The notes below the pieces were generated by a model. That model searched no databases. It was not told the origin of the DNA and saw only the letters and a program-made list of their open reading frames with translations. A stretch of 64,000 bases of DNA from Lewinella sp. LCG006 (GTDB lineage Bacteria > Bacteroidota > Bacteroidia > Chitinophagales > Saprospiraceae). The stretch is taken from NCBI RefSeq assembly GCF_040784935.1, contig NZ_CP160680.1:5437802-5501801 (forward strand), in the 5' to 3' direction. Shown one piece after another: positions 6,121-35,102 of this stretch (the stretch's first letter is position 1; every line of letters starts with the position of its first letter). Made by a program: the position numbers and the translations under genes.

Positions 6121-6178
6121 AGCATACGTGTGTAATATGTATTTTGTTGCAATTCAGGCAATTAAAAAATCGGGATCG
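6121..6178 (-). promoter_or_regulatory. Leader of array 2 (family 2), overlapping the cas2 3' end
   Basis: The sequence GCATACGTGTGTAATATG and the AT-rich bases after it recur nearly unchanged after array 4 (31151-31198). In array 2 it overlaps the last codons of cas2 (stop at 6154). No clear minus-7 box is seen here. Confidence 0.7.
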
Positions 6179-8432: not shown

Positions 8433-8637
8433 TTTGTTATGTTTTATGAGTTAAAGGAAAAGCGTTGAGTTTAGCATAATAGCAATACCGCATTTCTGGT
8501 GGCAGAAATGACAGTTTTGTTTTTGTCGCGGCTTGCGACTGGTATGGTGGGGACTAAAGGGGTGTTGGGGTTTTAGTGGGGACGTGATTGAATTTGACAA
8601 CGTTTAGTTGTCTTGGAAAAGAGAGAAGATTTATAAT

Positions 8638-9326: not shown

Positions 9327-9755
9327 TTACCCGTTGAAGTATTTAATGAAACTCAGCATTTCCTGGAGCCGGGCATAAACCGAGAATGGGGAATTACAGA
9401 AGTAAGCCTTGTCTTCGTAGTCATTAAGCAATTGATTACGGCCTGTTCCAAACCAGAGCAAATAGGCGGGGTGGTTTTCTAAGTAATCCTTTAAAATATC
9501 ATCGTTCTCAAAGCTCTTGGCATCGAAGAAGATGATTTCGAAGTGATCGGTTGCTCCCGTGGTGTTTCCATTCCATTTCGCATTTGGAAAGTAGTCACTC
9601 GGAAAAAGCTGCTTTTTGATGTAATCTACTCTTTGCTCAGAGCAAACTAGTAGAATGTGTTCGAAATGCTTGTCGAGTACGTAAGTCTCTGCGGCTATTT
9701 CTTCTTCAGAAAGTTTGTTGATAAAGCTTGAACAGATTTCAGCAATTCCTGATAT
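9327..9755 (-). pseudogene. Alpha/beta domain open frame without start codon (frameshifted end of the EAD gene)
   Basis: About 142 open codons after a TGA at 9758-9756, ending TAA at 9329-9327. It has no ATG until 15 codons before its end, so it is not a free-standing gene with a normal start. The product reads HFEHILLVC, FEIIFFDAKSFE, HPAYLLWFGTGRN and FSVYARLQEMLSFIKYF, which matches in order the C-terminal domain of the protein at 10727-11503 (RLLLLTP, FDVLIFNDFED, DKAILYYGTG, ARFLSQVYGNLMNLLKY). It is therefore a real coding domain, one frame (-1) away from the upstream EAD frame (9695-9955). A frameshift mutation, a sequencing error or ribosomal frameshifting are all possible. I saw no canonical slippery heptamer in the 9695-9758 overlap. 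Confidence 0.6.
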
Positions 9756-9955
9756 TCAATGTTTAGCTCTTTGCGAGAGACGGTCCCTTCTATTTCTGCA
9801 TCGACATGCCTCTTCATTCTAGCCTGTAACAAGTCCAAGGTGTCTCGTTCGTTCGTTGCAGAGGACTTAAGGTAGGTCGGCAGCAATTGCAGCGCCTTTC
9901 CAGGAGAAGAGACATTCGCCTTTTTCAGGGATTCAATGATTTCGTTAAAAGTCAT
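9695..9955 (-). CDS. Effector-associated-domain (EAD11-like) protein or N-terminal half of a split effector
   Basis: An 86-residue, all-helical product. Residues about 36-78 (TLDLLQARMKRH to EYQELLKSVQAL, with TVSRKE between) resemble effector-associated domains of the EAD11 type, short helical modules thought to pair like with like between sensors and effectors. The same stretch aligns without gaps to the C-terminus of the mCpol partner at 23410-24318 (LIALRRRVIDIE, LITRKE, LLDNLQEEI). The start overlaps the end of cas6b by 11 nt. The frame stops at 9695, while the alpha/beta domain continues one frame away to 9327. If restored, the protein would be EAD plus alpha/beta effector, about 208 residues. 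Confidence 0.6.
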   Translation of the reverse strand: MTFNEIIESLKKANVSSPGKALQLLPTYLKSSATNERDTLDLLQARMKRHVDAEIEGTVSRKELNIEYQELLKSVQALSTNFLKKK

Positions 9956-10726: not shown

Positions 10727-11503
10727 TTAGGTAATGGAGCGATGCTGTCGGGCACTGCGTTGGTATTTCAGAAGGTTCATAAGGTTACCATAGACCTGGG
10801 ACAGGAAGCGGGCCGAAGATATACTCGGATTAGTCGTGTCTTTGAGAATTCCTGTTCCGTAATAAAGGATCGCCTTATCTGGATAGTCTTGTACAATGTT
10901 TTCAATGATGGTAGTATCTTCAAAGTCGTTGAAAATTAAAACGTCAAAATCATCTAAGCTGCTAGGCAATTTTTTTTGCTCGACAGTTTTCAATTTTATT
11001 TTTTCGAATCCACTGTTTCGGAGTAGTTTGTGTAGTTTTTTATCCGTTTTTCCGCTTGGGGTTAATAGTAACAGTCGGCTATTCTCTACAATTTGCTCTT
11101 CTATGGGGGTGAAGTATTTTTTCATCTCAATTTCCGCTGCTTTTATCGCGCTGTTGTAGGCAAAACGATAAAGGGAATAGCCAAAACCAATCAAAGCAAA
11201 AAATGTGATAGGTATACCCAATGCTAACGGAGCTCCATAGTCTCTTTTGAGGTTAACTTCTACCTGTTGGATTTTTAGATGCAAACCTTTAATTTCTTGG
11301 TGTAGTGCTTTAATAGCTAGCAATTGCTCTTTATCATATATACTGGTATCAACAATACTACTTTGAAGTGAACTGATACGCTGAGTCAATAAGTGAACCT
11401 CCGCAGTTTCTTTCTCAAGTGCTAGATTGAGCGAATGAGTATGAAAAAAAAACAGAATAGCGGCAAAGAGTAATAATATTACTGGGAAGAAGTATTTACT
11501 CAT
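10727..11503 (-). CDS. Two-TM coiled-coil protein with C-terminal alpha/beta domain, candidate type III effector
   Basis: A 258-residue protein: TM segment about 4-22, coiled coil about 30-88 (heptad-like QRISSLQSSI, LHQEIKGLHLKIQQVEV), TM segment about 93-113, then an alternating beta/alpha domain about 137-245 (SRLLLLTP, FDVLIFNDFED, DKAILYYGTG, ARFLSQVYGNL). The last domain is the same family as that encoded at 9327-9755. Its start overlaps the stop of the ATPase gene by 4 nt (ATGA), implying translational coupling. The layout resembles membrane effectors fused to nucleotide sensors, but I cannot name the domain family. Predicted topology is both termini in the cytoplasm, coiled coil outside. 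Function is unknown; its place in the csm operon suggests an ancillary role. Confidence 0.6.
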   Translation of the reverse strand: MSKYFFPVILLLFAAILFFFHTHSLNLALEKETAEVHLLTQRISSLQSSIVDTSIYDKEQLLAIKALHQEIKGLHLKIQQVEVNLKRDYGAPLALGIPITFFALIGFGYSLYRFAYNSAIKAAEIEMKKYFTPIEEQIVENSRLLLLTPSGKTDKKLHKLLRNSGFEKIKLKTVEQKKLPSSLDDFDVLIFNDFEDTTIIENIVQDYPDKAILYYGTGILKDTTNPSISSARFLSQVYGNLMNLLKYQRSARQHRSIT

Positions 11504-14500
11504 TGTTTTATGTTTTGGGTTTCCCTCCAGACTTCATTAGCAAGGCCAGAAAGAAAATTACATTTAAGACCATCTGTTCTCTGGATAATATTTATGTTCT
11601 TGCTTTTTAAATGACTTTTTACCACCCCTAAAATCTTCTTTGAGAACCGAAATTTTTCTGGACTAGAATTATATTGATTTCTAGCAGCTTCTTCGCTTGA
11701 GTACTTTTGTGTCAATGCGCTTATTTTATTATCCCGGGTTCTTTGCTCTTCTTGATTAATTTTATCTCGTAACTCTTCCATACCACTCTCAGACAAGCCT
11801 AAATTAGAGATGTGACTTTCCCTTAGAAAATACCCTTCAATATCGTTATATTCAGTTACAAAAACCTCTACATCACGAAAGTATTCTTTGTTGTCCTTGA
11901 ACGTATCTTCAATCACAAACTGTTTGCCTACTCCATCACTATCTAAGTGAATAATAACTTTCTTGATATGCGTAATTTCTTCAAGAATAATTTTTGCCAT
12001 ACCTGCTGCAAAATGTGCTTTAGTTTTTCCCTTGAAAGATTTGATAAGCACTTCTGACATCCTAAACATATTACTTTCCAGCAAGCATTCAAGGCATTTA
12101 CTGTCATTCCATTTTTCATCTTCAGTAAGCACCAGTATCCTTTTCCCAGCTAGATCGGGAAGTAATTCTTTCTTGAACACCAGCCGTTCTCGCTCATCAT
12201 AGAATCCTTCAGGAAAAGGGGTATTTAATTCTCCCTTCTCAATAATACTGATTTCCTTTTCTAACCGGCCCTCTTTCAAGTAAAGAATTCCCACTTTGTC
12301 GATTTTTCCACCCTCTGCCTGTAAGGCCCGAATAAAATATTCGGAATGCGTTTCTAAGATAAATTGAACTCCCTGGTCAATGGCCTGCAAAAAAAACGGA
12401 GCTAACTTAGATTGTAAGCTAGGATGAAGGTTAGTTCCGGGTTCTTCGACATTAATTAGACCACCAGTTTTTATGTGCAACGCAGTTTGCAGAAGGATAG
12501 GCATCAACTGAGTGATACCGAAACCCAAATCTGCCAAGTGCCTTTGTTTGCCATCTTTAGTCGTTACGATAGCCTTTAAAGACGAACCATCAATAATTTT
12601 TACATTGAAATCAATACCAATATCGAAAGCATCTTTCTGAAATTGTTGCATAAGAAACTGATACTCCTTTTCGGCTTTATAGTTTTCATTTGCCTGAACA
12701 AAACGATGCCAGTCCATTAGTGATATTTCCAAATCCGTTCGATTCTTACTATGGTTATAAATCCGTTCCTGAATGCCTCGGGAAGCAGAAAAATGAGTCA
12801 GTTTTAAACTACCAACTAGTGTTAAAATTAGCGGATTAAGCCATTCTGTCAAGTGATCAAAAATAATATTATCTAAATAGGGAGAAATCAAGACATCTGC
12901 GATCTTACTATCACTATCTCGAAAGACTTTCTCAAGATCTTTTTTGTCTATTGAATCAACTTCCTCACTAATCAGTGATTGAAGTGTTTTGTCAATAAAA
13001 CTTTCATTAGCTTCTCCCCGCAGATATTCTTTTAAACGCCACTTATCACTCAGCAATAAAAGTTCGGATATATTTAAACTACTATTAAATATTATCTTAC
13101 CATTATTAATTTCAATTTTATCTGACTCATTGTTATTTGACACTAACAATCTTTTTAGCTCCTTTGCAAAGGCACTGTCAATCCACCGAACTATCAGATC
13201 ACTTAAATATGTGACTCGATCTTGAACGCTAGACAGCCCATAACTCTCCTTTATTTTTTTGTATTCATCGTGCTCTTCCATATTTCTATCCTGCTGCTGC
13301 TGCTGCTCCTGTTTCGGATTCTGAAACAAGCGTGTTTCGGAACTTTCTAGTGCTTTGAGGTTGTCAACTGCAATTTTGAGTTGGTTCTCTAGATCATTTT
13401 TCTGTTTTGGAAGCTCTTGATATTTTGACGGTTCAAATTTTTCTTTTTCTTTCAATAAGAAGTTACTTTCTTTCTGCAATTTCGACAATCTATCTTGGGC
13501 TAATCCATATTCTTTTTGCAAATTGTTAGATTGCTTTTCTTCTGAAAGTATACCCTGTAATGAATTGACTTTTTTCTCTTCATCCTTTATGTTCCTTTTA
13601 ACATCACTTATTCGCGTTTCTATTTGTGATTTTTTTTCCTCTAACTCAACTTTTGCTGATAGTAGTGTTTCCAGTTCGCTTATCTCTTCTGTTATCTTTT
13701 CTATTTCTTGTTTTAAACGTTCTATTTCTTCTTTCTCTTTTTTACTTTCTAATTCAATACTCGAATTATCTTCCTGAAATTTATCATCGGAAAATTCTTC
13801 CTGATCTTCATCTTCAAGATGACTAAATTGTTCCTCACTCGACAATATTAGTTCTACGGCATTATTTACATCTCTGTCTTGAATTTTATTTGCAACCCAA
13901 GACTTTAACCTATCCTTACGTAACTTCAGAAGTGCAGTGTTATCCCCTAGGAGATCGATAATCCACTGACTACCAAAAGTTACTTCTACCATACCGCTAT
14001 CAGCCCGATAAGTTAATAGTGGTTCCCTGTTCACTTCATTATTTTCACTCTCGCTTAAAGGGGTTATTTCTACTCCTGCCAGGGTAACTCGTTTTACTTG
14101 GTTCTCGGGTTCTCCTGCTTCTCCTTTAAAACGATATTCTACTTTCCACCTTTTTATAGAATTCCAAAAATCATTTCCTCTTTCCGTAGTATTTTCTATC
14201 TGGTGAAAGGAATCTCCATTTTCCTTCTCTACTTCCATTCTCTCTTCAGGAGTACCTTTGCTAGCCTTCTTTTTTTCTTTTATAAAGGAAAAGCATTGAT
14301 TAAAAACAATTTCAGCATCAGGATCATTGGCGACCGATATAAAACTACCCAGTTGGTGCTTTGCACCTTCATCAAATTCCAAATGGCTTAACCCGTTTTT
14401 TTCATAGTTATCACGCAATAGTAATAATGATTTCATCACAGAACTCTTCCCAGCACTGTTAGGACCAATAAGAATAGTAAGCGGCTTAAGGGGCAGCGTA

Positions 14501-14565
14501 ATTTGCTTAAACGAGCGAAAGTTTTCAAAGCCAAGTTCGGTTAAATGCAGGTTAGAGCGTTTCAT
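11500..14565 (-). CDS. OLD-like AAA/ABC-type ATPase with coiled coil and TOPRIM-like C-terminus
   Basis: A 1021-residue protein. Walker A GPNSAGKSS (34-42) follows a RecF/SMC-type start (FENFRSFKQITLPLKPLTIL). The long coiled coil spans about 255-415. The signature/Walker B region reads GFGITQLMPILLQTAL, INVEEPGTNLHP and FILETHSEYFIR. A DUF3696-like FPEGFYDE follows. The C-terminus has TOPRIM-like motifs: LTEDEKW near 812 and HLDSDGVG near 873. OLD-family ATPase-nucleases act in phage defence (Gabija GajA, retron and PARIS partners), but this one lies 6 nt after csm5 and overlaps the two-TM gene, inside a type III operon. It could process nucleic acid or drive the membrane protein; neither is shown. 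It is much longer than usual DUF3696 ATPases. Confidence 0.75.
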   Translation of the reverse strand: MKRSNLHLTELGFENFRSFKQITLPLKPLTILIGPNSAGKSSVMKSLLLLRDNYEKNGLSHLEFDEGAKHQLGSFISVANDPDAEIVFNQCFSFIKEKKKASKGTPEERMEVEKENGDSFHQIENTTERGNDFWNSIKRWKVEYRFKGEAGEPENQVKRVTLAGVEITPLSESENNEVNREPLLTYRADSGMVEVTFGSQWIIDLLGDNTALLKLRKDRLKSWVANKIQDRDVNNAVELILSSEEQFSHLEDEDQEEFSDDKFQEDNSSIELESKKEKEEIERLKQEIEKITEEISELETLLSAKVELEEKKSQIETRISDVKRNIKDEEKKVNSLQGILSEEKQSNNLQKEYGLAQDRLSKLQKESNFLLKEKEKFEPSKYQELPKQKNDLENQLKIAVDNLKALESSETRLFQNPKQEQQQQQDRNMEEHDEYKKIKESYGLSSVQDRVTYLSDLIVRWIDSAFAKELKRLLVSNNNESDKIEINNGKIIFNSSLNISELLLLSDKWRLKEYLRGEANESFIDKTLQSLISEEVDSIDKKDLEKVFRDSDSKIADVLISPYLDNIIFDHLTEWLNPLILTLVGSLKLTHFSASRGIQERIYNHSKNRTDLEISLMDWHRFVQANENYKAEKEYQFLMQQFQKDAFDIGIDFNVKIIDGSSLKAIVTTKDGKQRHLADLGFGITQLMPILLQTALHIKTGGLINVEEPGTNLHPSLQSKLAPFFLQAIDQGVQFILETHSEYFIRALQAEGGKIDKVGILYLKEGRLEKEISIIEKGELNTPFPEGFYDERERLVFKKELLPDLAGKRILVLTEDEKWNDSKCLECLLESNMFRMSEVLIKSFKGKTKAHFAAGMAKIILEEITHIKKVIIHLDSDGVGKQFVIEDTFKDNKEYFRDVEVFVTEYNDIEGYFLRESHISNLGLSESGMEELRDKINQEEQRTRDNKISALTQKYSSEEAARNQYNSSPEKFRFSKKILGVVKSHLKSKNINIIQRTDGLKCNFLSGLANEVWRETQNIKQ

Positions 14566-17773: not shown

Positions 17774-18241
17774 TCAATCGCGGCCGCCATGAACTTTATG
17801 GTAAGCGAGAATGGATTCAAAAAAATCGACAAAATTGAAAAAAATTCTATCCACCTCGCTCTCTTTGATTTGATCTTCTTTCATTTTATCGGTTACAGCA
17901 ATGTGAGCTCTTTCCAGCACTTCCTGTAATGACTTAGTACCGTGCGTACCTGCGCGCTTTGCGGCATAGGCCATTTTAGGTCTGAGCATCAAAAAGTCTT
18001 TCTTATTCCCTACTAAACTTCCTTCGGGCAGACTTACTCGACTGGCAATTCTTTTCACTTCACTAAAAATTATTCGAATTTGACTTGTAGTCAACCTATT
18101 ATCTACTAATTCTTTAGCAAATTTATCCGTGAAAGCGATTGTCTCGTCTTCGAAATCCGTTTGTATCCATCCATCGATTCTTTTCAATGCATCGGGAGTT
18201 GCTACAGTAGCAGATTCACGTTTTTTATTGTTATAAGGCAT
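17774..18241 (-). CDS. csm2: Csm2, small subunit of the type III-A complex
   Basis: A 155-residue helical protein: LTTSQIRIIFSEVKRIA (about 59-75), LRPKMAYAAKR (about 84-94) and the C-terminal FFNFVDFFESILAYHK are the usual Csm2 elements. It forms the belly filament against Csm3. It overlaps the end of cas10 by 11 nt. Its presence, with Csm5, marks the system as III-A rather than III-B. Confidence 0.92.
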   Translation of the reverse strand: MPYNNKKRESATVATPDALKRIDGWIQTDFEDETIAFTDKFAKELVDNRLTTSQIRIIFSEVKRIASRVSLPEGSLVGNKKDFLMLRPKMAYAAKRAGTHGTKSLQEVLERAHIAVTDKMKEDQIKESEVDRIFFNFVDFFESILAYHKVHGGRD

Positions 18242-20771
18242 CGTTTCGGTTATTATGTTCTTGATTTAAAATAGCACTTTCCGTACGCCGATCTAGTTCG
18301 GCCAATCTTGCTGTGAGCGCAAGTAGGGATAGAGGGGTGTGGTGTAATGAAGACGTCAATCTCCGATCCCAAATATTTCCTACCAGTACAAATTGCTTAA
18401 TCAGCTCAAGGAAGGTTTTTTCCGCATATTGCGACCTCTTCGATAAACGACTTTGTAGTTGCCCAAGTGCATAGGATGCCTGCCAGTGCCAGGCAAATTT
18501 GTTATGGCTGATTATACCACTTTCAAGTTCGCGCAATGTGTACAAATTACGCAGTATGCTTATTGGTATTCCATCAGGATTATGCTTTCCGCGTAATTGA
18601 GTTTTGAGCTTAAGAAATAATTGCTCTAACAAGGCGAATTCATCCGTCCAGGTATCATCAGTACAGGTGTCATCCTGCTTTTGCACTTCGCTCCAGCGAA
18701 GAGTATTTCCTAAAACAGTGAAGGCGTTTTTTTCATGATCCTTTTTTTCTATTGATCCTTTTGATGTTTTGCTGGAAGTCGTTATTGTGTAATCCTTACT
18801 CTGTTTTTCTGCTTTACCCGCTATATCTGCGGCCTTCATCACGGGATACTTATGCGTGACTACTACCATTCCTCCGGATATGCTGATAGCCGGATTAAAC
18901 CCGGTCCATCTAGCAAAATCGCGATTAATTGATCTGGCAAAGTGATAGATTTTATCCCAGCGACCGATTACAAACAAATCATCCCCACCGGCGTAGATAA
19001 TCTGTGTTGTGTCATAACGATAGTCCTGCACCCACAACTTGTTGAGATAGCCCTTGAAGAAATAATCCATGTTTCTACTTAGGGTAGCGTGATTGGCAAG
19101 GCAAGTTTGACTAACTGGTACTCCCTCCCTAAATAAACGTCCGAGGTTGTCGACATCCATGCGTAGTACACCTAGCCGTTTAAAATCCAACTCCGACTTT
19201 ACGTAATCTTCACCCCCGTATTCCAAACGGTCCTTTTCCACGTTACCCGCCATCTCTGAAAAGGTCTTAGGTACGACTAAGTAAGCTGAATTTGGATGCA
19301 AGGGTAGAAGTGTCGTAGGGCCTTCGTTTCCACCGTAGAGATGAAACTGAAATTTCCATTTTGGTGGAATTTTCCACTCAGGAAGCGAGAACTCATTGAT
19401 TTGCAAAATCGTTAATGGGATGCTTCTGAGTTGCTCGAAATGCTCGTCTAAATCAGCAGATGTTAATAAATAATTATAGATTTCTAGCTTACCAACCCTA
19501 GTATGAACGGGCATCCAACGAGGAATATATATCCTACCAAGTTCATCTACCTGTTTCGTAGTCTTGATCCAATAGTTAAACCCTTTCAAGCGTTGTCCGA
19601 GTATTACTTGAGTAGCAGAATTATAAGAAATCAAGTTTTTCCCGCTTGCAATTTCCTCTTTAGATGCTCCCCGAATATCTTCGATATTATTGGGGTCGAA
19701 ATAGCACGCTCTTTCTTTTCTCACATCATCTGTGAGTTCTTGAACAGGAATTTCTTCACCGGTTATTACATCACGAGGACTTATACCTCCTTTTTCTACC
19801 TCTTCAGGATCAAACAAAGTCGAATATTCCTCTACCTGCTTTTTGAAGGGCTGCTGCTTTTTCTTCCTTTGCTGACTTCCAATTTCACTAAACATCTCTC
19901 TCAAGGTGTCACCTCTTCCAAAGACTGTAGTGCCAAAAGCAAAAGTGATCGTAGTTTTATGCTGTTCGAATAATGCTTTACTGATCTCTTCTTCAAACTG
20001 TCTGATCTTTTCTCTTACTTCCTCAGTATTCGGCACAATAAGAAGAAAGTTTCCACCCGAATCATACACAATGTTTCCCTGATATAAATCTAATCTATCA
20101 AGTAAGTCCTCAATAATATTATTGACCAGTATATAAAGATAAAAGGACCGCCCCTTTAAATTACGAGAAGCGTTTTTACTAACAATATCGTACAAAAATT
20201 TCTGGATACCAGAAACATCACCACCCAGCATGAGCACCTTGTTGTTGACTTTATCACCACCCTTAGCGAGCGCTATAACAACTCCTGCTCGCAGACGGGC
20301 AAGATCATAGTAGCAAACAGTATCACGTTCTATGTAATCACAGGGAATTGTTGCCGTATACTTATGGAGCAGTTGAAGTACCATCTCACCTCCATATTTA
20401 TCTGCCATTTCAGCGAACGGAGCAGCTGCTTTGATGAACTCGGCCCATAGCTCATCAAATGGTTGTGCCTCCACATCTTTGATCGGAAAAAAATCGTCAT
20501 TTAATAGCATTTCTGCCGGTTGAAACCAATAGTTAGCCTTCGGCGGGTCATACTTAGGAAGTCGCAATAAAGAAAAAATAGATCGTAGTGCAGTAACTTT
20601 TTCACTTCGCTCTAATTCAGTTCCTAACACCATCCTGTTAGCCAAACGACAAAGCTCAGGCCAATCAGCTGGTATTTCTTGCGAACCCAACAATTCCTGC
20701 TTTACCATAGCTGGTGCATCATACAACAATGCAAATAAATACAAGCGATCCAACGATAGTGAATCAGACAT
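18231..20771 (-). CDS. cas10: Cas10/Csm1 with intact cyclase site and degenerate HD domain
   Basis: An 846-residue protein. The palm GGDD lies near residue 594 (YAGGDDLFVIGRWD) with the partner Asp pair in LGVLRMDVDNLGRLF, so cyclic oligoadenylate synthesis is expected. The N-terminus reads LYLFALLYDAPAMVKQ where an active Csm1 has an HD followed by IGK-type residues: His is Tyr, and no second HD histidine set is evident, so the DNase is probably lost. The Zn-binding cysteine cluster is also absent (only one Cys around ERACYFDP). LRMDVDNLG and the helical C-domain are normal. It is the first gene of the operon. The system thus appears tuned to RNA cleavage plus second-messenger signalling. 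Confidence 0.95.
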   Translation of the reverse strand: MSDSLSLDRLYLFALLYDAPAMVKQELLGSQEIPADWPELCRLANRMVLGTELERSEKVTALRSIFSLLRLPKYDPPKANYWFQPAEMLLNDDFFPIKDVEAQPFDELWAEFIKAAAPFAEMADKYGGEMVLQLLHKYTATIPCDYIERDTVCYYDLARLRAGVVIALAKGGDKVNNKVLMLGGDVSGIQKFLYDIVSKNASRNLKGRSFYLYILVNNIIEDLLDRLDLYQGNIVYDSGGNFLLIVPNTEEVREKIRQFEEEISKALFEQHKTTITFAFGTTVFGRGDTLREMFSEIGSQQRKKKQQPFKKQVEEYSTLFDPEEVEKGGISPRDVITGEEIPVQELTDDVRKERACYFDPNNIEDIRGASKEEIASGKNLISYNSATQVILGQRLKGFNYWIKTTKQVDELGRIYIPRWMPVHTRVGKLEIYNYLLTSADLDEHFEQLRSIPLTILQINEFSLPEWKIPPKWKFQFHLYGGNEGPTTLLPLHPNSAYLVVPKTFSEMAGNVEKDRLEYGGEDYVKSELDFKRLGVLRMDVDNLGRLFREGVPVSQTCLANHATLSRNMDYFFKGYLNKLWVQDYRYDTTQIIYAGGDDLFVIGRWDKIYHFARSINRDFARWTGFNPAISISGGMVVVTHKYPVMKAADIAGKAEKQSKDYTITTSSKTSKGSIEKKDHEKNAFTVLGNTLRWSEVQKQDDTCTDDTWTDEFALLEQLFLKLKTQLRGKHNPDGIPISILRNLYTLRELESGIISHNKFAWHWQASYALGQLQSRLSKRSQYAEKTFLELIKQFVLVGNIWDRRLTSSLHHTPLSLLALTARLAELDRRTESAILNQEHNNRNDAL

Positions 20772-21117
20772 CCAGTAAATAATTTAGGAGCCAGCTTTGC
20801 TAAAAGCAAATCAGCAAGTAATTTAATAACAATCGGCAACCTCCCAGGTAAGGCCAAAATAAGAGTGGAAAAGCGATAGAGTAACCGCTTGTACTCAAAT
20901 GTAAAGCATAAAATCAAAAAAAACAAACGAAAGAAAGAATAATACCGAATTAAGTGCCGTTTTGAAAAAGATTAGTAAAAAGTACTAATTAGTGATGACA
21001 TTTTAATTGGCTTGCAACCACTAGGTAATATACATAAGGCTATGGCACTCACGTGATCCATAACCCTGCTTCGACTTCGGTCGTAGCTACAATACCCCTC
21101 ACGGGGCCATTGCCATT
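20772..21117. promoter_or_regulatory. Divergent intergenic region with two hairpins before the sigma-like gene
   Basis: It separates cas10 (minus) from the sigma-like gene (plus). Just before the latter's ATG (21118) lie GCTTCGAC-TTCG-GTCGTAGC (21068-21087, a UUCG-capped stem with one mismatch) and CCCC-TCAC-GGGG (21095-21106). They would fold in the 5' UTR a few bases before the start codon, so they may control translation. Promoters for both directions are expected here but none is clear. Confidence 0.45.
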
Positions 21118-21648
21118 ATGGATACTTCATTGATATTGCTTACGTCTAGCGTAGCTTTAGATCGATTTTATCATCGCTTACACATGAAAGCTTATCGTCT
21201 GTTACTCAAACCTCACGAATCTCATTTGGAAGACGCTTTGCACAGTGCTGTACAAGATGGTATTCTTATTTTTCTGGATAAGCTAAGTAGTATGACAGAC
21301 ACTATTGAATACCCGGAAGCATTTGCTTTTGAAATCATCAAGCGTAACTATTGGGATAAGCGACGTAAGGCTATGCGTTGTCTAAATGAAAATCTGTTAT
21401 GTTTGATCACATTTCGTGATCGTCAACGTTATCTTAATGCTGAAGTACTTTTTGATTCTTTACCTGAACCGCAGCTTTTACATTGGTTCCATCAACTTTC
21501 TCCGCGTGACCAAAGAATCCTGAATCTTCGCTGTCAGGGCTACCAAGATGACGAAGTAGCGGCTCAATTAGGCCTTAGCTATGGAGGAGTGCGAAATATT
21601 TTCTCAAGACTTTTAACTCAAGCAAGAGAATTAGTCAAAAGAGCATAA
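21118..21648 (+). CDS. Sigma-70 family (ECF-like) regulator
   Basis: A 176-residue protein. The C-terminal region 4-like HTH reads LSPRDQRILNLRCQGYQDDE, then VAAQLGLSYGGVRNIFSRLL (about 124-165). The N-terminal part (about 30-90) is helical, compatible with a region 2 (SAVQDGILIFLDKL, YPEAFAFEIIKRNYWDKRRK). It is divergently transcribed from cas10 and convergent with the CARF nuclease. Sigma-like proteins are known companions of type III-E loci, where they are sequestered by an ancillary protein; here the analogy is only positional. It could drive the csm operon or a stress response. It might instead be a general ECF sigma factor. Confidence 0.65.
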   Translation: MDTSLILLTSSVALDRFYHRLHMKAYRLLLKPHESHLEDALHSAVQDGILIFLDKLSSMTDTIEYPEAFAFEIIKRNYWDKRRKAMRCLNENLLCLITFRDRQRYLNAEVLFDSLPEPQLLHWFHQLSPRDQRILNLRCQGYQDDEVAAQLGLSYGGVRNIFSRLLTQARELVKRA

Positions 21649-21713
21649 GTCCAAAATTATTATAATGAATATTCTAAAAACATCTAACGATTTTAGATTT
21701 CATAAATAACAGC

Positions 21714-22889
21714 TTATTTTAATAATAGTGACACCCATACCTCAGGGCCTTCAACTAAAAGTGTGCGGTCAATGATCTTTACATTTAACAGATCGGCTTC
21801 ACGAGCGAAGTGATTCTGTATTGTACCACCTTTGTGTTTACGAAGTTTTCCTGTTAATGTGATAAGTACAGTTTGAACATGAAAACCATAATCGCGTTTT
21901 AATGCCGCTAAACGGAACAAGGCATTATTAAAATTGACTTTAATTTGTTGCCCTTGTGCTTTTCCTAGCCCTATTTTAGCTTCTATCACGTATAGCTTAT
22001 TCCTGTAACAAAAGAGTAAATCAAATTCGTGATTTCTGCCAGCCAGACGCTCACCATCATTTGCAGGGTATAATTTCCAACCATGTACACATTCCAGACT
22101 GGACAATTTCAATTGCCCTATTATCATACGCATTAGATAGTGTTCAAGCCATAAAGATTGTAAATATTGTACTTCCGAAGCGTTTAGTAGTTGCTTTGTT
22201 TGTGGCGTAAAGTGCAAATGTTTCAACCAATTTTCTAGCCAGACTAAATGGTCATAAGATACGCCGAGTTCACCATTGATCATTCTCATTTCTTTCGTTA
22301 ACTCGTACCCAAGGGCTAATGTCGATTTTTTTATACTGGTAATCGGCTGCTTGCCATCTAAAACATCTTGTAATAGTTGTTTTTCGGTAGCTGGATTAGA
22401 CTGATAACCATAGGATGGCTTCTCGTAGGCTATGCCATATGCCTCTAGGTAAGTTTTTACCGAAAAGCTATAATTTAGGGCATAATCTCCAATATATTCA
22501 GAGGGATGAACTACACGATAAGTATTTACACCGGAAAGCACGTATAGGATTTTTGCTTTAATTGTTTTTTGAATAAAAAAAGACCACGCACCGGCACCAA
22601 TCATTTTTGTACTACCAGTTAAACTGACTATATACCTGTTGTCTTGGTTGTGAGAACTTGATAGTATTGATGCAACCCGAATGGGATCGTCAGGTGGAAC
22701 AATAAAAACTGACAAGCAATCCCTCTTTATTTTGGTTGCTTTTAATAAATGTTCAGTTCTTCCTTGCTTCTCCATTTTTTCTGTCGATATAAACCAGTAT
22801 TTATCAACATGTGAAAAATCCGGTTCCAACAAAACCAAAGCATTAGGTGCAGCTTGTTCTCCTACCAGAATCACTAATATTTCTGTCAT
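21714..22889 (-). CDS. Card1/Can2-like CARF nuclease (DUF1887 type)
   Basis: About 391 residues from the ATG at 22889, chosen over an upstream in-frame ATG (22925) because the CARF fold starts EILVILVGEQAAPNALVLL. The ligand loop YIVSLTGSTKMIGAGAWSFF is the CARF motif. The C-terminal PD-(D/E)XK site is HEFDLLFCYRNKLYVIEAKIG-like, with Asp, then E-x-K, near residues 290-305. Characterised relatives are activated by cyclic tetra-adenylate and degrade DNA and/or RNA. It is the clearest receiver for messenger made by the Cas10 encoded next door, and it replaces the more common Csm6. It ends 65 bp from the sigma-like gene stop (convergent). Confidence 0.9.
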   Translation of the reverse strand: MTEILVILVGEQAAPNALVLLEPDFSHVDKYWFISTEKMEKQGRTEHLLKATKIKRDCLSVFIVPPDDPIRVASILSSSHNQDNRYIVSLTGSTKMIGAGAWSFFIQKTIKAKILYVLSGVNTYRVVHPSEYIGDYALNYSFSVKTYLEAYGIAYEKPSYGYQSNPATEKQLLQDVLDGKQPITSIKKSTLALGYELTKEMRMINGELGVSYDHLVWLENWLKHLHFTPQTKQLLNASEVQYLQSLWLEHYLMRMIIGQLKLSSLECVHGWKLYPANDGERLAGRNHEFDLLFCYRNKLYVIEAKIGLGKAQGQQIKVNFNNALFRLAALKRDYGFHVQTVLITLTGKLRKHKGGTIQNHFAREADLLNVKIIDRTLLVEGPEVWVSLLLK

Positions 22890-23034
22890 GATGCTAATTG
22901 AATTTTTTAAACAGGTTATCTGCAATAGTATCAGATAAAATCCTTACATAGTTTCACTTTGGATGATTGAAAATTTTATCCCATTCTACGAGAAGTTGTA
23001 TAACTTTGTTCTTTATAATTTATTAAGCACTGCT

Positions 23035-23400
23035 ATGGGCGATTATTATATTGGGCTAGACGGAGACAGCATAGGCCGAATAATTGAATCTTTTCTAATT
23101 TCAGGAGAGGAAGCAAAGGTTGTTAAATTTAGCCAATCAATCTCCATGGTATTAGAAGAAATAAAAACTAGAGTTATTGAGCTTAATGGCAGAGTTCTGT
23201 TTTGCTCAGGGGATAGTATTTTATTTTATGGTAAATTCGACATGCCTTTTTGTAGTTCTCTCTTGAAAAGTTTCAAGAGTAGAACAAATTGTAGTGCATC
23301 CATTGGAATAGGGAAAACACTTCCTGATGTTTACCTAGGACTTAAGCTAGCTAAATCGAGAGGAGGAAATCAGGCCGTAGTTTATCCCATTGAATTATAG
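23035..23400 (+). CDS. Minimal CRISPR-polymerase-like (mCpol) cyclase
   Basis: A small palm-domain protein, about 121 residues from the ATG at 23035. An upstream in-frame ATG at 22963 would add 24 residues not expected for the fold. The first metal motif is YYIGLDGDSIGRIIE, then a helix LISGEEAKVVKFSQSISMVL and the hairpin GRVLFCSGDSILFYG, the counterpart of (G)GDD in Cas10 and mCpol. SIGIGKTLPDVYLGLKLAK follows as in Cas10 palms. The second motif is SGDS, keeping the first Asp but losing the last. mCpols were predicted to make nucleotide signals and operate in Panoptes-type defence. Here it is followed after 9 nt by a CARF-like/EAD partner. Activity is not certain given SGDS. Confidence 0.7.
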   Translation: MGDYYIGLDGDSIGRIIESFLISGEEAKVVKFSQSISMVLEEIKTRVIELNGRVLFCSGDSILFYGKFDMPFCSSLLKSFKSRTNCSASIGIGKTLPDVYLGLKLAKSRGGNQAVVYPIEL

Positions 23401-23409
23401 TCGCGTCCA

Positions 23410-24318
23410 ATGAAAAAGAATATTTTCATTTTTACAGCTCATGGGTTGTCACCTGATTTATATATTAATATTATTACCCACTTGTTTGTGCAATATGGGA
23501 AGTCATTAGTAGAGTGTATTACTCTTCTAAAGATTGCCTATGAAGGAGATTCAAAAAAAGAACTCCGAGACGAACTTATTATCATTCGGGAGAATATATC
23601 CATACAAATCCAAAATCTCATCAATAGTAAAGTACGAAAATGGGATAGAAAAATAAATGACTGGGAAAAATCATCAGAAGGTTTCGATTATATCAAATTA
23701 AATAGACAATTTTTACATTCCTATCTGGAAGTAAGTGCTTGGTTGGATGAAAACGAAATAGTAACAAAAGTAGAAAGTTCAGCAACATTAGATCAGTATT
23801 TAGAAAATCAAGCGAGTAACCGAAATTATGACAATATTTTTGATCTAACAGGAGCACCTAAAAAAGATTTTGTCACCATTTCTTTAGCACTCCTTTATCA
23901 AAAAAGTTACCTACATATTTTTGAAGTCTTAAGAGATTTTGGCTCATTTAAGCACCAGTTGATTCATGAGTATATAGATAATGATCAAAATAATCTCTAT
24001 AAGTACCATGATCTTAATTTACCCAATTACAAGGTTAGTAAAAATTACACTGACTTGATGAGTCAAAAAGAAAAATGGAAAGAAATGATTGCCAATGGTA
24101 TTAGTATAGTTGAAATAATCGATACAATTAAGAAAGACCTTTCCGAGTTGCCAAATGCTGAGATTTTTCAAGAAAAATCAAAAGAATTAATTGCACTTAG
24201 GAGACGAGTAATCGATATTGAACAAAATAGAAGCAAGGAATTGATAACACGTAAAGAAGCTAAGACCGAGACTAACAATCTTCTGGATAATCTACAAGAA
24301 GAGATAAGACAGATATAA
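23410..24318 (+). CDS. CARF-like sensor with C-terminal EAD-like domain, mCpol partner
   Basis: A 302-residue protein, 9 nt after the mCpol-like gene. It begins NIFIFTAHGLSPDLYINIIT (first beta strand and helix). YDNIFDLTGAPKKDFVTISL near 155-174 matches the CARF/Rossmannoid TG(G)-x-K ligand loop, as does FVTISLALLYQKSYLHIFEV after it. The last 70 residues are helical and resemble an EAD11-type domain (ELIALRRRVIDIE, LITRKEA, TNNLLDNLQEEI), aligning without gaps to the EAD frame at 9695-9955. No nuclease, protease or membrane effector is seen in this protein, so it should act through a partner, plausibly that EAD protein. Assignments are by eye. Confidence 0.6.
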   Translation: MKKNIFIFTAHGLSPDLYINIITHLFVQYGKSLVECITLLKIAYEGDSKKELRDELIIIRENISIQIQNLINSKVRKWDRKINDWEKSSEGFDYIKLNRQFLHSYLEVSAWLDENEIVTKVESSATLDQYLENQASNRNYDNIFDLTGAPKKDFVTISLALLYQKSYLHIFEVLRDFGSFKHQLIHEYIDNDQNNLYKYHDLNLPNYKVSKNYTDLMSQKEKWKEMIANGISIVEIIDTIKKDLSELPNAEIFQEKSKELIALRRRVIDIEQNRSKELITRKEAKTETNNLLDNLQEEIRQI

Positions 24319-24353
24319 AAAGCTGAGGTACTCCTCCCCAAGAGAAAACTCTT

Positions 24354-25070
24354 CTACTTCTGTCGTACACCCCGCAGCGGCCGCACCACTCCCAAACCTA
24401 ACTGTGCACCACGCCCCAGACCAAGAAACTCGGGAATGAAAAGATTGGTACGGAATTGCAGGTCAAAGCTGGCTTGGAAAATACCTCCCAATCTGCTTTT
24501 CTTTTCTTTGCCGACACGGAGCTGATCGAGGGTTAAAGGCTCTCTGGCTGGCCAGTTCATGCGGTCGGCCAATTCGCTGAGGTGAAACAATAGATGGCTT
24601 TGCAAGAGCGCGTTTTTATCAGCGAGAGAGCGCGCTTGTTGATAGGAGGTGTAAGCTTGGGATCGGAACGGGGTATACCCGAAAAGCAAGTAGGTGTATT
24701 TCTTTTTGCCGTAATCGGCCTGGAAGCGATGTTCGCGCTGGCGAAGGAGCAGGTTTTTTAAGGCCAGTGAGGTGATCGGGGAGAAAGCTGCCTGACCCAG
24801 GCAAACCTCCATCAGCATGAGGACCTGGCGACCCGCATAAGTGCCGATTTTAAACTCCTGCCAGTCGTTTGCGAAAAAGGAAGACCCCGCGGCGGTAGGC
24901 GTCCCCCGACCGGGCGCGTTGAGGGCCTTCTCTAGTGTTTGGATGCCCGCCGCAAGGGTGGCTTGCGTGCAGGGAATGTTCCAGTGTGTTTGACGTACGA
25001 ATAATGGGGACACGTTTATTCTTTTGATCTGCTGCAAAACTAAGGGGGATAAGGGCCTGTTTTTTGCCAA
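24354..25070 (-). CDS. cas6: Third Cas6-like protein
   Basis: A 238-residue protein whose C-terminus SFDLQFRTNLFIPEFLGLGR and GAQLGLGVVRPL parallels AFDLEFRTQLFLPSGIGIGK of the cas6b genes, including the Gly-rich loop, although the loop His is Gln/Leu-like here (GAQLGLG for GVSHGFG). The N-terminal half lacks the WRGA..HNH..YRYPLIQYR block. It may be an inactive or differently acting Cas6, or a Cas6 of another class for which only the RNA-binding half is similar. It is monocistronic and convergent with the mCpol operon, with AAGAG-AAAA-CTCTT (about 24340-24353) between them. Confidence 0.6.
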   Translation of the reverse strand: MAKNRPLSPLVLQQIKRINVSPLFVRQTHWNIPCTQATLAAGIQTLEKALNAPGRGTPTAAGSSFFANDWQEFKIGTYAGRQVLMLMEVCLGQAAFSPITSLALKNLLLRQREHRFQADYGKKKYTYLLFGYTPFRSQAYTSYQQARSLADKNALLQSHLLFHLSELADRMNWPAREPLTLDQLRVGKEKKSRLGGIFQASFDLQFRTNLFIPEFLGLGRGAQLGLGVVRPLRGVRQK

Positions 25071-25158
25071 AAAAATTAAGAAATACGAGTTAATTATAGC
25101 ATATTTGATTCTTAAACAGGTTTTAAATAGCTAATTATCAAATAATTAAAAATTTATA

Positions 25159-26577
25159 GTGATTTCAAAAAACGAGATAAAAAGTATCCTGGCCACGCTT
25201 GATGCAAAAGAATGGTTGTGGTTGGAGAAGTTTTTGAGTTCTCCTTACCATAATTCGGACGAGCGGCTGGTGGTGCTCCATCATTTGTTGCGGGCAGCTC
25301 CTGGTTTCGAGCTGGAAGGGGCTGAAGTCTACCCGACTTTCTTCCCTGGGCAAGCTTATGTCGCTCGGAAATGGGGCGACTTGTTGAGGAAATACCTACA
25401 AGTGTTGCATGCGTTTTTGGTACAGCAAGAACTGCGGGAAAGCCCTACTACCCAGGCGAAACTGGCGATTGACGGTCGCAAGCGGCGCAAGCTTTACGCC
25501 TTGCTGCAAGCGCAGATAGATGCTTACGAGGCGGCCATTGCCACCGAAAATCAAGCTCCCTGGGATACGGCCAATGCCTACCGTGTGCGCTGGCAGCAGC
25601 AGTACGAATTTCCAGGCCTGCTTCCGCAGAAAGAAGACTTCCAGCGGGCGACGGAGTACAATCGGCTCTTGTTTTGCCTCCTGGAGTTGCGCTACTGCAT
25701 CGAGCAGCAGAGTGTCATTAAGGATGATTACGAGAAAAATCGCGCTGAGATTGAGCCCGTCCTGGCCCTGGCCCAAAGCTTGAGTACCACCTGGCCTTTG
25801 TTGCAGCTGAATCTTCGCGTGTACGAGGCCTTCTGTGCAGAAAAGCTGAGCAGTGAACTGATTGATGCCTGTGAGCAGTGCTATTACGCCTTGTTTCCCA
25901 CGCTTTATCCCTACGATCGCACCTTTTTCTTTACCAAGTTGATGATGTTACACAATCGGCATAGCGTAAACCAGGGGCGCGAGGGCTTGGAAAGGTTTTT
26001 TGGCTTGCTAAAATTTGCATTTGATCGAGACCTCTACCTCGACGCGGAGAAAATGACCGAAACGACCTTCATCAACATCTGTATGGTGGGGATTGCAGTG
26101 AAAGAATTCGCTTGGGTGGAGCAATTTCGGGAAAAATACCTGCCCTGGGTATCGGTCGAGGATGCTACCAATATCAGTTTGCTCAGTGCAGCGCAACTGG
26201 CCTTTGGTCGGGGAGATTACGGCGCGGTGTACCGCTTAACGAGCCAGGCAAGTCGTATGCCCCTGGAACAGCGATTGCAGATGTACGGGCTGCAGATCAA
26301 AGCCCTCACCGAGCTTTATCTGACGGAAGAAAGTACGGCTTTTTCGCTGCGGGATTTTCTACGGAACGCAGATCGTTTCTTGCGGTATAACTCAAAGGTA
26401 CCTGCCCGCTCGAGAGAAAGTGTGCTCAATCTGATAAAAATCATTCATAAACTGGTGGTGATGCGGGAGCGTGGCGAGCGTCCGGCAAAAATTCGCCAGT
26501 ACCTAGAGAAGATGCAACAAGCAGCCAAAACGATAGCAGCGGGAGAATGGTTGCGCGAAAAGATCGCCCAAATATGA
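25159..26577 (+). CDS. Large helical protein of unknown function
   Basis: A 472-residue protein starting with GTG (no ATG lies near the start of the open frame). It is rich in Leu, Glu, Gln, Tyr and Trp and appears all-helical, with repeated amphipathic segments, so a TPR-like solenoid is possible. No signal peptide, membrane segment or catalytic motif is evident. I do not recognise the family; similar long helical proteins are common in Saprospiria genomes as uncharacterised entries. It starts about 90 bp divergently from the third cas6 gene; a CRISPR role is not supported by anything in its sequence. Confidence 0.75.
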   Translation: MISKNEIKSILATLDAKEWLWLEKFLSSPYHNSDERLVVLHHLLRAAPGFELEGAEVYPTFFPGQAYVARKWGDLLRKYLQVLHAFLVQQELRESPTTQAKLAIDGRKRRKLYALLQAQIDAYEAAIATENQAPWDTANAYRVRWQQQYEFPGLLPQKEDFQRATEYNRLLFCLLELRYCIEQQSVIKDDYEKNRAEIEPVLALAQSLSTTWPLLQLNLRVYEAFCAEKLSSELIDACEQCYYALFPTLYPYDRTFFFTKLMMLHNRHSVNQGREGLERFFGLLKFAFDRDLYLDAEKMTETTFINICMVGIAVKEFAWVEQFREKYLPWVSVEDATNISLLSAAQLAFGRGDYGAVYRLTSQASRMPLEQRLQMYGLQIKALTELYLTEESTAFSLRDFLRNADRFLRYNSKVPARSRESVLNLIKIIHKLVVMRERGERPAKIRQYLEKMQQAAKTIAAGEWLREKIAQI

Positions 26578-27139: not shown

Positions 27140-28341
27140 GTTTAAGCTCTCCCGATACGATCCTTGATCTATCGGAGCTAGACCTGCGTTGAACGGAGTA
27201 ACGCAGCGTGGGGTATTTAAGACCCCTTCCTGCTCTATAGTCTCGCTGGTAGGCAGGCATCCCAGCCTTCCCTGTGAGGGCAGGAGTTTTTTGAGTTGGA
27301 GGAGAGGGGTGTGTTGGCCTTGTTTTAGGCTCCATCCTCCGGCTCCTTCCTCGCGAGGAAGGAGTGACGCTGGTGAGGTGTGAATGCTCCGTGGGTAGAC
27401 TAGACTAGCGGGGTAATTTATAACGAATACTACGGGCCACGGCCCGCCCATGTCCTCCGCCCGGTCGGAGGTGGCCCAGAGGGTCGGAGGTGGGCTATAG
27501 GCTAGGCCTAAGGTTGCCCACCAGGGGCCGAGGTGGGCAACCTCGTCTATCAGGGTCAATTCCAAGCATCAGGTGGCCTATCCCGCTGTCGAGGGTGGTC
27601 ATAGGCCGATTTGATATGTGCTTCTAACACAAACACAGGCCTTCAGGAGAGCATCCTCCAAATCCAAGCTCCTCCTTAGCTTTGGTCGGGATACGTTTCA
27701 ACTTCTCCTTAGCCTAAGGTTCCTTTAGCTGGTTAAGCGCTAGACGTGCCACTTCCCGAACGTGCGGGATACGTTTTATCTTCCTTTCCAATCTTGATTT
27801 CTCTTGCTGGTTAGGTCGCTAGACGTGCCCTGTCCCGACCAAACCTCTAAATGAGCTTTGGTCGGGGCACGTTTCAACTTCTTTTTTGGTCTTGGTTATT
27901 CTTTCTGGTTAGGTCGCTAGACGTGCCCCGCAGGTCTAGTCCCGATAGAGCTGATAAGGTGGTATCTGGATCGTCCCGATCAAATCACTTGTTGAGCTTT
28001 GATACGGGATTAAAACCTGCGGGACACATTTTAACTTCTCTTTATTCTTCTGAGATTACATTAGCTGGTTAGGTCGCTAGACGTGCCCCGCACGGCTAGT
28101 CCCGATAGATTTGTAAGAATCGTATCGGGATCGCAGTCCCTGTCCGACTGGCGTCTGGCCAGACGGGCTCACTATAATGGATGGCGATCCCGATCAAACC
28201 TCCTCCGGAGCTTCGATGCGGGATTAAAACGTGCGGGGCACGTTTTAACTTCCTTTCCAATCTTGATTTCTCTTGCTGGTTAGGTCGCTAGACGTACCCC
28301 GTACGGCTAGTCCCGATAGATTTGTAAGAATCGTATCGGGA
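27140..28341. repeat. Palindromic repeat mosaic, copy III (abuts array 3), with a lone CRISPR repeat
   Basis: Longest copy. It holds CTGCGTT..AACGCAG, the perfect 22-bp palindrome made of CTCCTTCCTCG and its complement (about 27343-27364), the GGGCCACGGCCC block, then several hairpin units with GCTAGACGT near 27744, 27817, 27917, 28077 and 28287. At 28131-28187 a single CRISPR repeat carrying the 29-nt insert stands between two units (TATCGGGA before, TCCCGATC after). The last unit ends TATCGGGA fused to CAGTCC of array 3. Confidence 0.8.
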
Positions 28342-28886
28342 CAGTCCTCACTATAATGGATGGCGACTTGAAGCACATTAAAAATGAAAAGGGCACATGG
28401 GATAGCGTCGCAGTCTTCACTGTAATGGATGGCGACTTGAAGCATCAAAAAGAACGTCGATCGCCTTAACCCTGTCGCAGTCCTCACTGTAATGGATGGC
28501 GACTTGAAGTATTCGACGCCATGTTCATCAAGGACGGCATCCGTCGCAGTCCTCACTATAATGGATGGCGACTTGAATTATGAAGAAGCGGTGCAAGCGC
28601 AAAATGATTCGTCGCAGTCCTCACTATAATGGATGGCGACTTGAAGACTAAAGAAAATGAAAAAGCCACAGGTCAAGAAAGGTCGCAGTCCTCACTATAA
28701 TGGATGGCGACTTGAAGTGGCCCGGGATGACGTAAACGTAAAGTTTTTATTTGTCGCAGTCCCTGTCCGACTGGCGTCTGGCCAGGCGGGCTCACTATAA
28801 TGGATGGCGACTTGAAGCATTCTGCCACAAACGGGAGACTAACGTTCTTGCCAGGCGGGCTCACTATAATGGATGGCGACTTGAAG
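28342..28886 (-). CRISPR. CRISPR array 3 (8 repeats, 7 spacers; family 1, decaying at both ends)
   Basis: Repeats of family 1 start at 28342 (truncated), 28407, 28474, 28543, 28611, 28682, 28753 and 28850. The repeat at 28753-28817 contains a 29-nt insert after GTCGCAGTCC. The last, leader-proximal repeat (28850-28886) keeps only the final 11 nt of that insert plus TCACTATAAT..TTGAAG, so it lacks the handle-coding part. The repeat at 28543 ends TTGAAT. Leader on the right, transcription predicted leftwards. The damage next to the leader suggests the array can no longer take up spacers normally. Confidence 0.95.
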
Positions 28887-29235
28887 GCCCATTTTTACAA
28901 AACGTATGCTAAAGATAAGCTATTCAGAGAAAAACAAATAAAAGAATAGTTTAATGACATACTCGAAAATGATTTTTCGTTAGATTTTAACATTTGTTAA
29001 TGGAAGCAATATAGTCTTTTTTGAGCAAAAACAAAAATGATGTTTTTCTGCAATTCGCTGATTTTTAGTTATTTGTGTTTTTAGTACAAACAAAATGTAT
29101 TTCGCTTCCTGTAAGAAATTACGAAAATCTGCTTAGGTCAAAAAATGATTATGTATTTCATTGGGGTAGAATAGATTGTGCTGTTTTTCAAAACGCTCTA
29201 TTTAACATAATGATAATACAAAAAATTGGATGGTA
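28887..29235 (-). promoter_or_regulatory. Leader of array 3 (family 1)
   Basis: Homologous to 3511-3860 over its length, with shared blocks ATGATTTTTCGTTAGATTTT, AAATCTGCTTAGGT and ATGATTATGTATT. It confirms common origin and polarity of arrays 1 and 3. Confidence 0.85.
28910..28938 (-). promoter_or_regulatory. Predicted promoter of array 3
   Basis: On the minus strand TTTG, 17 nt, TATCTTTA, exactly as in the array 1 leader and about 24 nt before the first repeat. The match between two diverged leaders supports function. Confidence 0.55.
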
Positions 29236-34394: not shown

Positions 34395-35102
34395 ATGAAT
34401 CAACTTTTGAAAAATACCAATATCATGAATAACATCCTTATCAATCAAGATTTTGAAAATGCGATCAAGCGTTTACGCGCAATTTTGCCAAAGCTCAGTT
34501 TTGCACTTCTGATTGCAACCTATCTGATCTCTGCACTCATAATGGGCATCTTTCATGCGCAAAATGCAACAGATGTCGGAATGAAGATAGCGGCTTTTCT
34601 TATTCCCTTAGCCATTCAGACGGGCAGGGGAACGCTAGTGTTTTTCTTCCAGCTCAATCCTGCTCGTTTACAAGACCAGATTTCTATAGGGATAATCGCT
34701 GCAACGGTATTACTCCTGCTTTCCCTATGGGAAGCTTGGCTGGTGATGTCGGTTTATGGACTGGCATGGACGGTATCGGTAGGGACGCTTATGATCATTG
34801 GCTGGGTGATTGAAGTTATGATCCTGAAAGAAACCCTTTTTACGACCCAGATGCAGCTTTACCAAAACAAGGCACAGTGGCAGGAACTGCAGGAATTCTA
34901 TTTGGCAAGAGCCGAGCTGCATAGATTTATGCAAGACGTTCGAGCTGGAAAGCGTCCCAATAGAATTGAAGACGAGGGTGCTGGTGAAAAGAAAAAGGAG
35001 GCCATAGGACACCTTTTCCCAAATCATGAAGAACCTGATAAAATCTTAAACGCGGAGGAGGGAAACGTCTGCCGCCCGTCCCTGAACGGGCAACACTTAT
35101 AA
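34395..35102 (+). CDS. Membrane protein of the mobile element, unknown role
   Basis: A 235-residue protein with four hydrophobic segments (about 33-55, 62-85, 96-120, 122-144) and a charged cytoplasmic tail with a helix (about 150-185). It starts 3 nt after the recombinase stop, so is co-expressed with it. I do not recognise a family; membrane proteins with long charged tails next to integrases occur in Bacteroidota elements. The C-terminal coding may be disrupted: another frame takes over from 35042 (see next entry). Confidence 0.65.
   Translation: MNQLLKNTNIMNNILINQDFENAIKRLRAILPKLSFALLIATYLISALIMGIFHAQNATDVGMKIAAFLIPLAIQTGRGTLVFFFQLNPARLQDQISIGIIAATVLLLLSLWEAWLVMSVYGLAWTVSVGTLMIIGWVIEVMILKETLFTTQMQLYQNKAQWQELQEFYLARAELHRFMQDVRAGKRPNRIEDEGAGEKKKEAIGHLFPNHEEPDKILNAEEGNVCRPSLNGQHL

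Follow-up and report, generated by a model that had tools for sequence, protein, structure and literature searches.

The question raised by this locus is how an mCpol cyclase might protect its host when the sensor encoded beside it has no recognised killing part of its own. In the window (the whole stretch of DNA analysed, 64,000 nucleotides from Lewinella sp. LCG006, whose genome is a single contig of 7.5 Mb and which shares its genus with Lewinella cohaerens, G618), an mCpol gene and a gene for a 302-residue CARF sensor lie 9 nt apart on the plus strand, inside a type III-A CRISPR locus. The best-supported model, to which we assign a probability of roughly one half, is a Panoptes-like guard whose effector acts in trans and is encoded in another gene.

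The first paper on mCpol was reportedly that of Burroughs in 2015. The representative in the window (22963..23400, plus strand) matches PF18182 with an E-value of 3.3e-26 and a score of 92.3 bits against a curated cut-off of 26.4, over profile positions 1-114 of 114. It also matches NF033576 (E 1.4e-19) and aligns with the solved Panoptes OptS chains PDB 9mnr and 9nwn. The metal-binding catalytic aspartates of OptS are given as D6 and D57 in the text of PMC12657218, and in the alignment to 9nwn/9mnr these correspond to the retained residues D33 and D84 (numbered on the 145-residue frame). The full-length match and the kept aspartates agree with an earlier note on this DNA, which had taken the small protein for an mCpol palm. 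According to the text of PMC12657230, OptS contacts ATP through S30 and the partner N34; in the alignment the former is kept as S57 and the latter is replaced by S61, so that 2',3'-c-di-AMP is not necessarily the product. The nearest homologues start no more than three residues from the ATG at 23035, and this codon, which gives a protein of 121 aa, is therefore probably the true start. Profile searches found a bare palm domain, with no recognised sensor domain.

The second gene occupies the frame 23410-24318 (plus strand). Residues 1-207 of its product (23410..24030) form a CARF domain with a Rossmannoid fold and the conserved loop DLTGAPKK, and all eight CARF partners of mCpol that were tested, of the EAD11 type and the 2TM type alike, match the PADLOC model CARF_m9 (CARF_m9--CARF_TM). 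Residues 211-301 (24040..24312) form a four-helix EAD11 domain, recognised through PF19964 and by hhalign of the family. The window sensor by itself scores 15.3 bits over residues 220-300 and does not reach the Pfam gathering score of 26, which is a curator's threshold rather than a biological trait. Two homologous sensors exceed it, with 62.9 bits in a Saprospiraceae MAG (L023) and 32.4 bits in G497 (L091), and that of L. cohaerens (L022) has no Pfam match, so that the family of four comprises two members above the cut-off, one below and one without a match. In single hhalign comparisons, the four tails together match eight other EAD11 domains at 96.9% (E 1.4e-10), and the window and L022 tails alone match EAD11 at 61% (E 7.9e-5). 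A profile built from 17 EAD11 domains lists neither of these two sensors at E 0.5, which indicates that their EAD11 has drifted far from the family.

Peak C-terminal hydropathy ranges from 0.36 to 0.99 in the four EAD11-type sensors versus 2.06 to 2.86 in eight CARF-2TM proteins. The window sensor, at 0.79, has no membrane segment. Together with the alignment, these values place EAD11 where sister CARF proteins carry membrane helices, and any killing part must therefore lie in another protein. Neither profile searches nor hydropathy revealed an enzymatic or membrane part in the four CARF-EAD11 proteins. The claim of the earlier note that the second protein is a CARF sensor with a C-terminal EAD is thus borne out by the CARF_m9 match and, for EAD11, by the family profile.

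The same pairing of genes recurs in other genomes. Scanning a single genome for each species gave 13 mCpol loci, to which two plasmid loci were added, and the next gene was sought in all 15. Ten loci (L020 and L026-L034) have a CARF protein whose C-terminal part holds one to three hydrophobic segments, as judged by a crude scan, and two (L022 from L. cohaerens and L023) have a CARF protein of 300 or 304 residues without membrane helices. A 204-residue membrane protein adjoins mCpol at L021, and L024 and L025 have no convincing neighbour. PF18182 was also searched in four overlapping genome sets, in which the window's own genome is counted where searched, and was found in 6 of 395 genomes of the phylum set, 26 of 396 of the order set, 7 of 20 of a further family (f66) and 25 of 398 of the window's own family. 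Most of these matches are long frames resembling Cas10 or fusions, among which those of G642, G436 and G818 were read. Eleven short-frame matches and the G642 fusion make up 12 mCpol loci in 10 genomes.

A CARF-EAD11 gene stands beside mCpol at 4 of these 12 loci: the window, L. cohaerens, MAG-109 (G990, contig C319) and G497, which belongs to another family. The two-gene operon is thus present in the window and three further genomes. Another four loci (G990 contig C382, G838, G734 and G878 contig C625) have a CARF protein with membrane helices. The remaining four comprise an S-2TM-beta neighbour (G586; Cap15 PF18153, 48.6 bits), a Csm6-HEPN-like neighbour (G878 contig C153; PF09670, 20.5 bits, below cut-off), a CARF alone with a transposase-like gene adjoining (G507), and the mCpol of G642, which follows a longer protein in one fusion and whose locus resembles type III by eye. 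MAG-109 carries both kinds of operon, one with CARF-EAD11 (L118, on the same contig as L023) and one with CARF-2TM (L117). Similarly, the mCpols nearest to that of the window (50-56% identity) are partnered either by CARF-EAD11 (L022, L023) or by CARF with membrane helices (L117, L119).

Two of these loci show further features. At the Csm6-HEPN-like locus (L120, 4573-6566), mCpol is followed by a 266-residue protein with the sub-threshold PF09670 match; upstream lies a divergently oriented TM-NARF gene, and downstream are frames that by eye resemble reverse transcriptase and Cas1. In L. cohaerens a Cas6-like gene adjoins the operon, again by eye, and no CRISPR array was seen in 19.9 kb around it. 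The CARF-EAD11 sensor gave no tblastn match in plasmids or phages, no DNA match in plasmids and no confirmed relative in viral contigs. The mCpol query gave two matches in plasmids.

The trees suggest that the two genes have not always travelled together. A tree of 14 CARF domains places the four EAD11 proteins in a single group (support 98/97; 99% of 200 bootstrap trees), whereas in a tree of 18 mCpols the enzymes of the EAD11 operons are united in none of 200. There the window enzyme, along with those of L022 and L023, clusters with two mCpols from CARF-2TM operons, L117 and L119 (91/89), while the enzyme of G497 joins its L121 counterpart (94/82). Before L117, L119 and L121 were added, the EAD11 rows came together in 94% of bootstrap trees for CARF, 2% for mCpol and 44% for both joined. 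CARF-EAD11 thus looks like a cassette, and the trees are most simply read as meaning that it was combined with different cyclases, whichever of the two genes was the one to move. With four EAD11 rows and some long branches, these small trees give a lead and no proof.

If the killing part lies in another protein, the genome offers a pool of candidates. EAD11 has 13 matches in the source genome, 12 of them above the cut-off, spread over 12 proteins other than the sensor (L010 and L012 belong to a single protein) that include the 86-residue csm-operon product, P0003. The Pfam scan for further domains took in 11 of the 12, all save L008. Above the cut-off it found CHAT (L001), caspase (L004), iSTAND (L011) and TPR (L005) domains; below it, TIR (L009) and abortive-infection (L003) matches, and nothing informative in the remaining proteins scanned. 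Relatives have such pools too, with 12 EAD11 matches in L. cohaerens and 13 in MAG-109 and fusions that include caspase (L036), TIR (L039) and EAD1 (L035). The text of PMC7159879 proposes that EADs act through homotypic contact, with a core protein and with effector copies adjoining it or encoded elsewhere, and the EAD11 pool with its effector fusions fits this principle. The EAD1 fusion (L035, 1189-1737, plus strand) is a 182-residue protein with no other domain above the cut-off, and apart from itself the EAD of the L023 sensor matches nothing better; this protein may link two EAD networks.

Among 1643 ORFs from 37 sources, the 17-domain profile detected no EAD11 effector linked to the operon. 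It otherwise found the sensors L091 and L023 (the latter twice, its contig also being L118) and the EAD11 proteins of csm operons (window, L141 and L144), with marginal matches to window 34395-35102 (E 0.23) and to the mCpol of L121 (E 0.35).

The guard model would work as follows. The mCpol would produce a cyclic dinucleotide continuously, which the CARF domain would bind, and in the bound state the C-terminal EAD11 would be unable to dock. Removal of the nucleotide by a phage sponge or phosphodiesterase would free the EAD11, which could then gather and activate one or several EAD11 effectors through EAD11-EAD11 contact. Candidates for these, encoded elsewhere, are the CHAT- or caspase-type proteases, the TIR-like protein and the iSTAND protein, and the activated effectors would kill or arrest the cell. 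Counting for this model, the text of PMC12657218 predicts CARF-2TM proteins to be OptE-like effectors. Against it, the same text leaves the sign for other mCpol partners, inhibition or activation, to either alternative. Also weighing against it are the failure to find an EAD11 effector in the operon flanks examined, the sub-cut-off EAD11 score of the window sensor, the tail of L022 without a Pfam match, and the outcome for CBASS, the usual companion of Panoptes: the SMODS model found a cyclase in one of the four operon genomes, and none in the source genome or L. cohaerens.

The same parts could also serve activating signalling after the manner of CBASS or type III CRISPR: infection would switch on mCpol, the nucleotide would open the CARF domain, and the EAD11 would then recruit effectors. 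CARF effectors of type III systems are switched on by cyclic oligoadenylate, an analogy that would favor such a scheme. The text of PMC12657218 also allows for activation of other mCpol partners. However, the texts of PMC12657230 and PMC12657218 describe the characterised mCpols as constitutive, and the bare palm in the window offers no recognised sensor domain on which infection could act. We therefore regard activation as unlikely, though deserving of consideration.

A second alternative is suggested by the surroundings of the operon, where it would guard the type III cyclic-oligoadenylate pathway by watching for attack on Csm1 signalling from phage ring nucleases or sponges. On one side of the operon lie csm1, which encodes a Csm1/Cas10 protein with an intact GGDD cyclase motif (18231..20771, minus strand; TIGR02578 E 1.9e-112), and, back to back with mCpol, a gene for a CARF-PDDEXK nuclease of the Card1/Can2 kind (21714..22925, minus strand; PF23400 CARF_Card1 E 1.9e-16; PADLOC CARF4--CARF_PDDEXK E 5.1e-32; first in-frame ATG at 22889). 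On the other side, a cas6 gene is convergent (24354..25070, minus strand; Cas6b-like, PF17262 E 1.7e-15). Csm1 and Cas6b were assigned by profile, and csm2-5 by eye; with the CRISPR arrays, they uphold the type III-A setting named in the earlier note. This layout, the intact GGDD and the failure to find a SMODS cyclase in the source genome all speak for the alternative. Nevertheless, Csm1 scores above the cut-off in only two of the four operon genomes, with no such match in L. cohaerens or in a MAG that is about 80% complete. Guarding of type III signalling is plausible in the window, given the adjoining Card1-like nuclease and nearby csm1, but not in general, and as an account of the operon we consider it rather improbable.

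Other features of the locus can be recorded here. It contains three Cas6b-like genes (window 8638-9312, 9945-10715 and 24354-25070), and its arrays at about 2572-3511, 5654-6121 and 28335-28887 differ in their repeat variants. Between csm1 and the CARF nuclease lies a sigma-70 region-4-like regulator (21118-21648, plus strand; 23.4 bits, below cut-off). No RNA family was found at window 20700-25200, and a scan for promoters and terminators gave no more than chance.

A third alternative dispenses with partners altogether, so that loss or gain of the nucleotide would cause CARF-EAD11 oligomers to form that are themselves toxic or regulatory. The failure to find a linked effector gene and the divergence of the window and L022 EAD11 from the family model are what such a protein would lead one to expect. 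Yet EAD11 is often fused to effector domains elsewhere, and the CARF-EAD11 proteins have no recognised enzymatic or membrane part, so this proposal appears quite improbable.

There remains the pairing suggested in the earlier note, in which the sensor would pass its signal to P0003. This protein (9695..9955, minus strand; 86 aa) overlaps the end of cas6 by 11 nt and matches PF19964 with E 2.7e-5 and 24.5 bits, just below the cut-off, and by hhalign at 76%. The proposed kinship of the two helical segments stands insofar as both match EAD11, but P0003 is not the sensor's closest EAD11: in pairwise scores with shuffles it ranks 10th among all 33 EAD11 domains and third among the 13 that its own genome contributes, and hhalign gives it 2% probability against the four-sequence profile of sensor tails. 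Nor did the expected co-occurrence with the mCpol-CARF/EAD operon appear, as 297 other family genomes yielded two weak matches to P0003, both inside longer frames (E 0.003 and 0.006), and L. cohaerens, which has the operon, yielded none.

P0003 appears instead to be half of a longer gene. A NARF-like open frame with no ordinary start codon near its beginning (9327..9755, minus strand; a stop-to-stop frame) overlaps the end of P0003 in another reading frame. It was matched by tblastn with the EAD11-NARF protein of another locus, L141 (E 2.4e-10 in a 3.2-kb stretch), and although it has no Pfam match alone, a profile of it with two intact homologues matches TM-NARF at 93% (E 3.2e-7). TM-NARF itself is a type III accessory gene of the csm operon (10727..11503, minus strand; PADLOC Mem_03, E 4.2e-6; PF20299 NARF, E 1e-8) whose product has an N-terminal hydropathy peak of 2.21. 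It is matched in 13 of 398 family genomes, including the source genome but not L. cohaerens, and in 8 of 11 neighbourhoods elsewhere it adjoins cas6-, csm- or cmr-like genes, as assigned by eye. In two of five wider TM-NARF neighbourhoods an intact EAD11-NARF frame follows type III-A csm genes, at L141 of G692 (13638-14291, minus strand; EAD11 53.7 bits) and at L144 of G1027 (8316-9083, plus strand; EAD11 14.4 bits, below cut-off). The NARF halves of these two match TM-NARF at 95% (E 3.9e-8), with no PF20299 match by hmmscan. EAD11-NARF with a separate TM-NARF thus constitutes a second EAD11 module in nucleotide-signalling loci (window 9327-9955, L141 and L144). Directly before TM-NARF in the csm operon is a gene for a 1021-residue AAA ATPase with AbiEii- and OLD-like matches (11500-14565, minus strand).

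In the window, the EAD11-NARF gene appears to be split over two frames, whether by mutation, ribosomal frameshifting or a sequence error. Since P0003 has no effector domain and is followed by a NARF-like second half, and since intact EAD11-NARF frames exist elsewhere, it more likely belongs with the TM-NARF module and does not qualify as an effector in wait for the sensor of the mCpol operon. A dedicated pair was accordingly rejected on the pairwise scores, hhalign and the search of 298 genomes, and even though the two EAD11 proteins lie only 13 kb apart in one CRISPR locus, we consider it very improbable, given that EAD11 is common in the genome and that P0003 is neither co-conserved nor equipped with an effector domain.

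We return to the guard with an effector in trans. A broader idea, which we put forward tentatively and with clearly less confidence, is that EAD11 serves as a shared socket: two or more dissimilar nucleotide-associated domains, CARF beside mCpol and NARF in csm operons, would through their fusion to EAD11 feed a common pool of EAD11 effectors. If this were true, then cyclic-nucleotide immunity would run through death-domain-like adaptors, on either side of which cyclases and executioners could be exchanged. In Panoptes as characterised so far the killing part resides within the sensor protein, whereas here the sensor retains only a docking domain. Such a sensor would let one guard use several effectors, and would allow cyclase, sensor and effector to evolve apart. 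With two genes and a short list of EAD11 proteins, the system is a small test case for homotypic EAD signalling, and one that also bears on whether mCpol nucleotides inhibit or activate their other partners.

Two elements of this arrangement are already known, namely mCpol with CARF-2TM (text of PMC12657218) and EAD7 in CRISPR-linked CARF systems (text of PMC10910872). Term searches of the running text of PMC12657218 and PMC12657230 gave no instance of mCpol combined with CARF-EAD11. The wider literature searches, which covered the running text of mostly open-access papers among those listed, also agree with the earlier view that the arrangement is undescribed. The CARF/SAVED systems of PMC10910872 are likewise multi-component CARF signalling systems involving an EAD, but this is EAD7, together with vWA-MoxR-VMAP components, and the term mCpol is absent from that text. 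Similarly, the EAD-coupled conflict systems of Kaur et al. 2020 (PMC7159879), as described in its text, have an EAD core protein and further EAD copies fused to effectors at other sites of the genome, as here, although the core protein in the window differs in being a CARF sensor paired with a cyclase; by term counts, that text mentions CARF once and neither mCpol nor EAD11.

The closest likenesses are to the mCpol systems themselves. CARF-2TM operons, which according to the text of PMC12657218 account for 40% of mCpol genes and have a predicted function, share with the window the CARF family, the gene order and some of the nearest mCpols, but carry membrane helices where the window sensor has EAD11. 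Panoptes OptS-OptE (mCpol with S-2TM-beta) appears alike, at the level of sequence, in its mCpol with the same catalytic aspartates, its two-gene operon and a partner of the nucleotide-sensing type. It often has a CBASS companion, a frequent rather than strict association, whereas the source genome has no SMODS match. Its sensor is a Cap15-like beta-barrel, whereas that of the window is a CARF protein without membrane helices that ends in EAD11. Because the partner has no two-helix membrane part, the window system is not to be filed as Panoptes proper.
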